The notes below the pieces were generated by a model. The model made no database searches and was not told the origin of the DNA. It saw only the letters and a list, made by a program, of their open reading frames with translations. A DNA stretch of 64,000 bases from Geobacter sp. AOG1 (lineage in GTDB: Bacteria > Desulfobacterota > Desulfuromonadia > Geobacterales > Geobacteraceae). Positions 22,601 through 45,029 of this stretch are shown piece by piece; within the stretch, counting starts at the first letter, position 1; every line of letters begins with the position of its first letter. The stretch covers positions 496,001 through 560,000 of the forward strand of contig NZ_BLIZ01000001.1 of assembly GCF_019972315.1 (NCBI RefSeq), read 5' to 3'. The translations under genes were made by a program, and so were the position numbers.

Positions 22601-22628
22601 TTGTCAAACCCCAGAAGGGGAGTATAAT
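22601..22628 (+). promoter_or_regulatory. Strong sigma-70 promoter for the candidate sRNA
   Basis: TTGTCA (22601-22606) and a perfect TATAAT (22623-22628) are separated by 16 bases. The spacer carries an inverted CCCC/GGGG. Transcription should begin near 22635. Confidence 0.65.
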
Positions 22629-22634
22629 AAAATT

Positions 22635-22711
22635 ACACAGAGTTGCGAGAGTCGCGAGACTCTCATTATGCCCTAGCTGACTTGCCCTCCTAGTCGCTAG
22701 GGTGTTTTTTT
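22635..22711 (+). ncRNA. Candidate small RNA with two hairpins and an anti-Shine-Dalgarno loop
   Basis: About 77 bases between a strong promoter and a terminator. Hairpin 1 (22647-22664) is a perfect 7-bp stem closed by a GCGA tetraloop. Hairpin 2 (22671-22702) has an 11-bp stem with one bulged T and a nine-base loop TGCCCTCCT, followed by TGTTTTTTT, an intrinsic terminator. The CCCTCCT loop is complementary to the Shine-Dalgarno sequence. It could be a free sRNA or a terminated leader of the downstream regulator gene. No known RNA family was recognised. Confidence 0.6.
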
Positions 22712-38418: not shown

Positions 38419-39801
38419 TCAAACAAGCGCTTTGAGTGCGGCAAGAAGGAGTGGAACATCAGCATCGAGGATGGTGCGGAGGTCGAGAAGGAACTCCCCT
38501 TTGGCAATTCTGCCGACAACCGGCACGGCACCGGTGCGCAGACGGGCCTCCAGCTCCTGGGGGGAAAGACCGGCCATTCGGATGGCCAGGAGGAACGTCG
38601 GCAGCTCCTGACCGGGAAGGGCTCCCCCTCCCACCTGTGAAACACCTTTCACCAGGGTGACCTCGACCGCGGCCGGAAGGTTTCGGCGCAGAAGCCGGAT
38701 GACTCGCCTCCCCTTGCCTGCCAGTTCGGCAGAAGTGACCGTGAGCATGCGCAGGGTCGGAATGGAGGCAAGGGCCTGCCGTTCGTCCCGGTACAGGGCC
38801 AGGGTCCCTTCCAGGGCCGCAAGGGTCAGTTTGTCGATTCGGAACGCCCTGAGCAGTGGATGTTTCTTCATCGGGTCGAGACACGCCTTTCGTCCGACGA
38901 TGAGCCCCGCCTGAGGACCGCCGAGGAGTTTGTCCCCACTGAAGGTGACCACGTCGATGCCTGCCCGGACGAATTCCTGGATCGTCGGCTCGCTACCCAT
39001 GCCAAACCGGGCCAAATCGATGAGGTTGCCGCTCCCCACATCCGCCATGACCGGCAGGCCATAGTCCCTGCCGAGCTCCACCAGTCGGGGTGCGGTAACC
39101 TCGGCGGTAAAGCCGATCGTGGCGAAGTTGCTGGCATGCACCTTGAGAAACAGCGCGGTTTCGGTGGTTACAGCTGCACGATAGTCGTCCGGGTGGGTCC
39201 GGTTGGTCGTACCCACTTCCCGCAGCAAGGCTCCGCTCTGCCCCATGATGTCGGGAATCCGGAATGACCCGCCGATCTCCACCAGTTCGCCGCGGGAGAC
39301 CACCACTTCCTTGCCGACGGCCATGGCTGCCAGCGCCAACATGACCGCGGCCGCATTATTGTTCACCACCAGTGCCGCTTCGGCACCGGTCAACTCACAG
39401 AGCAGCTCTTCCACATGGGAATAGCGGCTCCCACGCTCTCCTGCTTCCAGGTCGAACTCCAGGTTTGAATAGCCGTAAGCGATACGGTCAAGCTGCTCCC
39501 GAACCTTTTCCGGCAGGGGGGATCGGCCGAGGTTAGTGTGGATAACCACCCCGGTGCCGTTCACAACCCGCTTCAGGCTCAGAGACGTGTCACGCTCAAC
39601 CGCCGCAGCTATTCTGGATGCAATAGTTTCCACCGGCGGCAAAACGAATGACGTTCCTTCCATGGCTTCCCGGCGTAAAGAATCCAGGACAGTTCGCACC
39701 CCTTTGAGTACCACCGGGCGGGGGTAAGCAATCAGAATCGCCTGGACTCCGGGCCATACCAACACCTTGTCGACTTTGGGAATGTTCTTGAGAACCGACA
39801 C
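38419..39801 (-). CDS. selA: L-seryl-tRNA(Sec) selenium transferase
   Basis: A 460-residue PLP enzyme that converts Ser-tRNA(Sec) to Sec-tRNA(Sec) using selenophosphate. The start is a GTG at 39801 after GAGGAGC. Key parts are VNGTGVVIHTNLGRSPLP, EAALVVNNNAAAVMLAL, the lysine in FSGDKLLGGPQAGLIVGRK, and DVGSGNLIDL. It serves selenoproteins such as the UGA-containing thioredoxin-like gene at 44.3 kb. selB, selD and selC are not in the window. Confidence 0.96.
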   Translation of the reverse strand: MSVLKNIPKVDKVLVWPGVQAILIAYPRPVVLKGVRTVLDSLRREAMEGTSFVLPPVETIASRIAAAVERDTSLSLKRVVNGTGVVIHTNLGRSPLPEKVREQLDRIAYGYSNLEFDLEAGERGSRYSHVEELLCELTGAEAALVVNNNAAAVMLALAAMAVGKEVVVSRGELVEIGGSFRIPDIMGQSGALLREVGTTNRTHPDDYRAAVTTETALFLKVHASNFATIGFTAEVTAPRLVELGRDYGLPVMADVGSGNLIDLARFGMGSEPTIQEFVRAGIDVVTFSGDKLLGGPQAGLIVGRKACLDPMKKHPLLRAFRIDKLTLAALEGTLALYRDERQALASIPTLRMLTVTSAELAGKGRRVIRLLRRNLPAAVEVTLVKGVSQVGGGALPGQELPTFLLAIRMAGLSPQELEARLRTGAVPVVGRIAKGEFLLDLRTILDADVPLLLAALKALV

Positions 39802-44285: not shown

Positions 44286-44312
44286 AAAAACGGGGGCCAC
44301 ACTGCGCCCCCG
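44286..44312 (-). terminator. Terminator of the selenoprotein gene
   Basis: On the minus strand ACGGGGGC, loop GCAGTGTG, GCCCCCGT is followed by TTTTTATG, 27 bases after the stop codon. Confidence 0.82.
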
Positions 44313-44338
44313 TCTGCAAGACTCTGGGTAGACTCCAT

Positions 44339-44908
44339 TTATAGCAGGCTGTATGGCTCGGCCCGCTTCGCCCACTCGCTGGCCGGATAGTCAGCTGCCA
44401 GCTTTTCGTAGGCCTGCTTGAGCGCCGCAGCATCGTGACTCGCCTTGAACCGGCTCACCCCGCGGAGGTAGACCGCCTCGGGGGCAAAACCGCTCTGGGG
44501 GAAGTCGGACAGCACCCGGTCAAAATGGATGATGGCATCATTGAAATCCCCCGTATCGAAATCGGTTTTCCCCATTCCGAGGAGCAGCGAGGCGATCAGG
44601 TCGTCGGGGGGAAGGAAGCCGACGGTCCGGTGGTGCTCCTTCCCGTAAAAATCGAGAGTGATGAGGGTGGGGGTCCAGGTGAGTTTGAACTCGTCGGCCA
44701 GCGGCTTGCTGTCCGCCGGCACCCGGATCGGCACGAGGCTTGACGTGATGAAATCGAAGACCTTCACATTGGGATACGTGACCGCATCCATCTGTTTACA
44801 ACCAATTCAGCCAGGGTTGAAGAAGTCGAGCAGTATCGTCTTATGTTCGGTCCGCCCTCGGACGAGGGCACTGTTAAAATCGGTCTCCCAGTCGATGATG
44901 CTTGCCAT
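44339..44908 (-). CDS. Selenocysteine-containing thioredoxin-fold/TPR protein
   Basis: Read through the in-frame TGA at 44809-44807, this is a 189-residue protein. The ATG at 44908 has a perfect AGGAGG. Residues 1-33 (MASIIDWETDFNSALVRG..., ILLDFFNPG) form the first strand and helix of a thioredoxin fold, and the TGA (Sec34) is followed by IGC, giving a U-x-x-C redox motif. The fold continues with TPTLITLDFYGKEHHRTVGF (cis-Pro). The C-terminal 80 residues are TPR-like. A SECIS-like hairpin follows the UGA. A caller that ignores Sec would start at the ATG at 44791 and lose the active site. Confidence 0.88.
44772..44789 (-). promoter_or_regulatory. Candidate bacterial SECIS hairpin
   Basis: On the minus strand GGATGC, loop GGTCAC, GTATCC forms a six-pair stem (one G-U) whose loop begins 24 bases after the UGA. 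Outer ACA/TGT pairs can extend it across an internal loop. The GGUC in the apical loop is the SelB-recognition feature known from E. coli fdhF. Confidence 0.65.
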
Positions 44909-45029
44909 GACACTACCTCCTCTGGTTGTTTGATTGTCGGAACCGGGATCTGCCGTACGCCGGATTGTGGGTAAATCGTAGCTCACTCCCGGGCGGAGTC
45001 AAGGAGACGCGTACGGTGGGTGCTCCCCC

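Follow-up and report, generated by a model that had tools for sequence, protein, structure and literature searches.

A predicted UxxC selenoprotein with a thioredoxin-like domain and a short TPR tail in Geobacter and its relatives

Described thioredoxin-like selenoproteins and the Geobacter gene

Two selenoproteins of the thioredoxin type were listed in 2006 for Geobacter metallireducens and G. uraniumreducens, namely a thioredoxin and a thiol:disulfide interchange protein, while the list for G. sulfurreducens in the same survey gave the thioredoxin only, with the interchange protein absent (PMC1794560). A thioredoxin gene containing TGA, GSU3446, is also listed for G. sulfurreducens (PMC1914089). 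The interchange protein appears in the GOS survey as Trx-like 2 (thiol disulfide interchange protein, cd02953) with a UxxC motif, and the columns of the survey table that appear to count Sec and Cys forms give 22 and 2,098, respectively, for the broad domain (PMC2398784). In a 2026 review the interchange protein is assigned to PF13098, again with UxxC, and WP_011366075.1 is the published example (PMC13188914).

The gene described here was found on the minus strand of a window of 64,000 nucleotides (the whole stretch analysed) from Geobacter sp. AOG1. It has 189 codons with a single in-frame TGA, at codon 34, and ends with TAA. The sequence-only reading had proposed that read-through of the TGA at 44809–44807 joins a 33-residue N terminus, led by its own AGGAGG, to a 155-residue C terminus and places selenocysteine (Sec) at the first redox position of U-I-G-C. 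The coordinates were exact, and codon 34 aligns with the Cys of relatives. The read-through product comprises 33 residues ending in NPG, then U and a further 155 residues, with the motif PGUIGCKQM. A GGAGG sequence upstream of the ATG was also found in the four relatives compared with the window gene. The features of the gene are as follows.

44339–44908, minus strand: predicted selenoprotein gene, 189 codons plus TAA (ATG at 44908–44906, TAA at 44341–44339), for which relatives were searched
44807–44809, minus strand: predicted Sec-UGA codon, residue 34, first redox position of UIGC (TGA in 105 of 136 distinct relatives)
44798–44800, minus strand: codon 37, presumed resolving Cys of UxxC (Cys in all 105 relatives with TGA and in 23 of the 31 others)
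44916–44921, minus strand: AGGAGG ribosome-binding site, 7 nt before the ATG
44585–44905, minus strand: thioredoxin domain, residues 2–108, DsbD-gamma-like (PF13098, E 1e-8; DsbD gamma profile, E ~1e-12)
44357–44608, minus strand: C-terminal TPR segment, residues 101–184, five predicted helices (TPR_6; pLDDT 77–93 at residues 111–180)

The product shares UxxC, PF13098 and the occurrence of Sec in Geobacter with the interchange-protein selenoprotein, which is also recorded with Sec in Syntrophus (PMC1794560; PMC2398784; PMC13188914). Its Thioredoxin_2 (PF13098) match scored 35.9 bits against a cut-off of 27 and, together with UIGC, agrees with the published description. To judge from domain and motif, the window gene is very probably a member of this already predicted family, and the family is probably not new. 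The portions of the published accounts that deal with the interchange protein do not mention a TPR tail, whereas the window gene has one (TPR_6, 27.7 bits, cut-off 26.3). The present analysis adds the TPR tail, the distribution of the Sec form across the phylum and a single replacement of Sec by Cys, in the Geomonas lineage. A search of the open-access literature found no paper joining Geobacter, selenocysteine, thioredoxin and TPR, and none joining Geomonas with selenocysteine.

The gamma domain of DsbD is periplasmic, forms part of a membrane protein and carries Cys. A profile built from 17 members of the window gene's family matched DsbD gamma chains (PDB 2fwe, 1uc7, 4ip6) over residues 2–108 with E ~1e-12, as well as a putative disulphide isomerase (2kuc, E 2e-14) and the TPR of CpoB (E 2e-9). 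Unlike DsbD gamma, the window protein has Sec and a TPR tail and lacks a visible signal peptide. The best NCBIfam match was TsoB (NF045694), a selenoprotein resembling a rhodanese/DsbD fusion, at 33.7 bits. This match reached the end of the profile, but it was far below the cut-off of 805 bits and covered only positions 457–567 of 572.

The host genome contains a second candidate selenoprotein of the thioredoxin type (L109, C1:1141661-1141957), with WUPHC, an in-frame TGA and a PF00085 match. Its TGA, like that of the window gene, takes the first redox position in the thioredoxin domain, but it is a single-domain PF00085 protein in which no TPR was seen. As this protein is separate from the window gene, it fits the thioredoxin entry of 2006. 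A further locus (C1:1672100, L003) was rejected as a selenoprotein; it encodes a CIPC thioredoxin and the TGA is its own terminal stop. Among PF13098 matches, an internal TGA was found in one of eight in the host genome, the window gene itself, and in one of 11 in genome G033, the orthologue.

Decoding of the in-frame TGA

Relatives were sought at three levels. In the 48 genomes of the family, an orthologue was found in 39, with the TGA form in 19 and a non-TGA form in 20 (G006, G010–G028), and none was found in the remaining nine (G002, G004, G039–G045). One of the TGA forms, in G032, gave a match split into two parts, suggestive of a frameshift. At the order level, 50 of 141 genomes had a match at E<=1e-15, and at the phylum level at least 148 of 395 had one at E<=1e-10, many of them to the thioredoxin part only. 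With 68 further matches added, nearly all near-full-length, 181 sequences covering codon 34 were available among the matches listed. Removal of 45 that repeated the same DNA or had fewer than 131 aligned residues left 136 distinct sequences. Sec members made up most of the seeds, and the search was confined to one phylum, apart from a pattern scan that returned 5 loci.

Codon 34 was TGA in 105 of these, TGC in 22, TGT in seven, and GTG and GAG in one each, while neither TAA nor TAG occurred in any of the 136. The commonest motifs were UIGC (84) and ULGC (11). Full-length homologues of both kinds, with Cys (29) and with TGA (105), thus exist, as a search suggested by the sequence-only reading was to establish. 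Since TGA is found at the same codon in so many distinct relatives and is never replaced by TAA or TAG, a decaying gene is excluded, as is the sequencing error turning TGC or TGT into TGA that the same reading had named as a possible refutation.

Several observations were made on individual relatives. A subfamily with FW(F/Y)(D/K)GUxGC (L160, L165, L170, L171, L175, L183–L185, L047, L146 and L147; eight of the 11 from family f34) has a strong hairpin, GAATACG-GGTC-CGTATTC, past the UGA. G036 has two copies, an ordinary one and L047. Genomes with two or three copies, all TGA, include G446 (twice on C10, where the copies are about 6 kb apart, and once on C2) and G372 (C135 and C74). The gene in L004 (JAJZUQ010000006.1, titled Deltaproteobacteria bacterium) is 92 percent identical to the window gene; the record places this contig in the Myxococcota, a placement that is probably wrong.

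The sequence-only reading had also pointed to a hairpin with a GGUC loop 24 bases after the UGA. It was found at 44789–44772, with the first G as the 24th base and the GUCA loop beginning at the 25th nucleotide.

44772–44789, minus strand: bacterial SECIS-like hairpin with a 7-bp stem and a GUCA loop, GGATGCG-GTCA-CGTATCC (published constraints and recoding test)

Published rules for bacterial SECIS elements, as set out in the 2026 review, call for a loop of 3–9 nt, a stem of 4–16 bp, a G in the first two loop positions, a spacing of 16–37 nt and an MFE of -7.5 or below (PMC13188914). The window hairpin, with its 7 bp, GUCA loop, 24-nt spacer and MFE of -12.8 kcal/mol, lies within all of them. 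Because the protein itself is conserved across the hairpin region, stability was compared with that of synonymous recodings sampled according to codon usage in nine window genes (2000 for the window gene, 200 for each relative). Only two of the 2000 were as stable as the window hairpin, and the recoding mean was -4.1, so that the predicted SECIS element passed both examinations. Compared with dinucleotide shuffles, the hairpin stood out only modestly (z -1.94; 10 of 200 shuffles were as stable). Searches of Rfam found no family matching the hairpin. Elsewhere in the window an atoC RNA (RF01733) was found at 22621–22709 on the plus strand, at 88 bits.

In the relatives, p<=0.05 in the recoding test was reached by 60 of the 105 Sec sequences, with 45 falling short of it, and by none of the 29 Cys sequences. 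At +30, 101 of 105 Sec sequences have a codon with G in its third position, whether for Thr, Ala, Pro, Ser or Val, versus five of 29 Cys sequences, in which the codon is mostly ACC (16). A looser search that applied the loop and spacing rules found a stem of at least 6 bp in all 105 Sec sequences and in 11 of the 29 Cys sequences; with stems allowed to be as short as the published 4 bp, 25 of the 29 Cys sequences pass too, many registers having been tried and the MFE rule left off for the relatives.

The main stem class included 85 Sec sequences, 59 of them distinct. Among these 59, pair 22–35 was AU in 39, GC in 17 and GU in three, and pair 23–34 was UA in 55, AU in three and GU in one, these being counts of sequences and not of independent events. 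The innermost of the seven pairs of the window stem was kept in 29 of the 59 and not in the other 30. Two more classes, of nine and seven sequences, had a shifted register, and four of the 105 Sec sequences fell outside all three classes. When 3' arms were exchanged among the 70 distinct Sec hairpins, the best-paired fraction fell from 0.913 to 0.859 (highest of 500 exchanges, 0.876), a small drop because most Sec hairpins are alike. The same fraction was 0.644 for the 23 distinct Cys sequences.

Under the standard code the TGA splits the frame in two, and an internal ATG (44791) opens an ORF of 150 residues, as would be expected if the TGA were a real stop in a pseudogene, or one that separates a 33-residue peptide from a C-terminal protein with its own start. 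This can be set aside with near certainty, given the pattern of codon 34 in the relatives and the full-length Cys versions described above. In addition, pN/pS against the four relatives was low on both sides of the TGA (0.21–0.28 before it and 0.07–0.23 after it), and both sides therefore look selected as protein. Inspection by eye found no Shine-Dalgarno-like sequence upstream of the internal ATG, and the RNA is constrained over and above what the protein accounts for.

The genes required for selenocysteine insertion were examined in the window, in the host genome and across the family.

38419–39801, minus strand: selA, selenocysteine synthase (TIGR00474, 613.8 bits, cut-off 267.9)

The host genome also has selB (341.2 bits, cut-off 242.25) and a tRNA-Sec (RF01852, 74.7 bits, gathering score 47), for which ARAGORN agrees and gives the anticodon tca. 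Among the 48 family genomes, selA was over the cut-off in 44 and selB in 43; for the 19 with the TGA form the numbers were 18 and 16. The selB misses in this set were in G005, G031 and G032, assemblies that are 70–84 percent complete. G046 has the TGA form and selB but gave no match to selA, and its assembly is rated 100 percent complete; an assembly gap may be the reason. An earlier remark that selA lies about 5 kb away holds for the window as far as distance goes (4.5 kb), but no functional linkage follows from it. A selA gene was found less than 8 kb from the gene in six genomes examined (G000, G003, G007, G035, G036, G037) and was not within 8 kb in others, for example G008, G029, G033, G034, G038 and G047.

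That a near-cognate tRNA reads the UGA as an ordinary residue rather than Sec is hardly credible with tRNA-Sec, SelA and SelB all encoded in the genome, TGA exchanging with Cys codons at a redox position and the hairpin signal missing from the Cys forms. The window gene very likely encodes a selenoprotein in which UGA-34 is read as Sec. From the sequence, SelB carrying GTP and Sec-tRNA, and held by the hairpin 24 nt downstream, would decode this codon as selenocysteine.

Probable replacement of selenocysteine by cysteine

A maximum-likelihood tree was built from 137 distinct proteins and rooted at the midpoint; its bootstrap had not converged completely, and several of the terminal branches are long. 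The 20 Cys sequences from genera g5 and g6, including Geomonas silvestris and G. limicola, formed one clade (100/100) nested among Sec sequences, with successive forks supported at 96/79, 98/85, 98/90, 100/91 and 97/90. This nesting indicates that Cys replaced Sec once in the Geomonas lineage, unless the root lies within the family. The 20 genomes of the clade retain both selA and selB; in the family-level count, the 20 genomes with Cys all had both genes over the cut-off. The G. silvestris hairpin region has a 5' arm still identical to that of the window gene and a broken 3' arm, which looks like the remnant of a SECIS element. In the table of the 2006 survey, if its columns are identified from the totals (33 and 15), this family appears to have one Cys-to-Sec event and no Sec-to-Cys event (PMC1794560).

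The other Cys or degenerate sequences were L186, within family f34, L192, on a long branch, and a distant clade of nine from f64, of which eight have lost the second Cys. In these eight (L194, L199, L200, L202–L206), two lack both redox residues, and they are possibly non-redox descendants.

Domain architecture and possible function

No signal peptide was seen in the product on inspection by eye, and on this basis it is taken as probably cytosolic. An AlphaFold2 model from an alignment of six sequences had confident helices at about residues 111–180 and pLDDT below 50 for residues 1–99, so that the model, poor before residue 100, did not confirm the thioredoxin fold. Foldseek returned nothing at E<=0.001, the best matches being the TPRs of YbgF and BamD at E 0.004. 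In the alignment of 17 members the TPR tail has several invariant residues, and near-invariant residues include E144, A145, L163 and W179.

The neighbourhood was examined by clustering ORFs of at least 90 residues from 20 wide loci and the window with BLASTP. Apart from the window gene and its antisense or shadow ORFs, no neighbour family was found in more than three of the 21 loci, and nothing in them hinted at a substrate. The ORFs next to the window gene have counterparts mainly in G033, and one channel-like ORF has a counterpart also in L220. The flanks of the gene contain two weak signals.

44288–44315, minus strand: terminator-like stem-loop past the stop codon (weak; one found, 1.0 expected in shuffles)
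44975–45002, minus strand: upstream promoter-like hexamer pair (weak; one found, 0.5 expected in shuffles)

The gene thus seems to stand alone, with weak promoter- and terminator-like flanks and without a recurring partner gene.

We lean towards reading the product as a Sec-dependent thiol-disulfide reductase that would owe its partner specificity to the TPR tail. The UxxC motif and the thioredoxin-type domain suggest that selenolate-34 would attack a disulfide or other oxidised thiol of the substrate and that Cys37 would then resolve the mixed selenenyl-sulfide, while the short TPR tail would probably bind a partner or client protein and so confer specificity.

A gene that stands alone, with no recurring partner, is also what might be seen for a general-purpose thioredoxin that reduces many proteins and whose TPR tail has no special meaning. 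We give this possibility limited weight, as near-invariant residues in the tail speak against it and the host already has a second, classical thioredoxin in the WUPHC protein.

The other comparison that must be weighed is with CnoX (YbbN) of Escherichia coli, which likewise has an N-terminal thioredoxin domain followed by a C-terminal TPR. By analogy, the TPR of the window protein might hold unfolded clients and pass them to GroEL/ES, with Sec as the redox centre. The order of the domains agrees with this, as does the conservation of the tail, and CnoX of Caulobacter is reported to retain CXXC and to act as an oxidoreductase (PMC8129009; PMC6282202). However, E. coli CnoX, as described, has SXXC and a longer TPR belonging to other families, and profile comparison revealed no relation to the window protein. 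The TPR_19 and TPR_20 domains present in E. coli CnoX had no match in the window protein at E<=1, and hhalign with CnoX, over 71 columns, gave a probability of 1.2 percent. The TPR part of the window protein has roughly half the length of that in CnoX, and among solved TPRs the YbgF- and BamD-like ones come nearest. Membership of CnoX was rejected for want of TPR_19/TPR_20 and of any whole-length sequence relation, and a chaperedoxin role of the CnoX kind is improbable. We regard as a long shot the related idea of a small selenocysteine chaperedoxin, in which the TPR would hold oxidised or unfolded clients while the Sec/Cys pair reduces them; the thioredoxin-plus-TPR design would then have arisen a second time, independently of CnoX, and in this phylum would have been retained mostly in the Sec form.

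For the partner-specific reductase that we favour, as for any gene of this type, annotation that treats the TGA as a stop would split the gene or lose it. In most selenoprotein families, according to the 2006 survey, Sec forms are far fewer than Cys forms (PMC1794560). Contrary to that rule, Sec is the common state here, in 105 of 136 near-full-length distinct sequences, a statement that applies only to the TPR-bearing group within one phylum. Geobacter, with Sec, and Geomonas, with Cys, make a natural pair for asking what benefit Sec brings to the enzyme.
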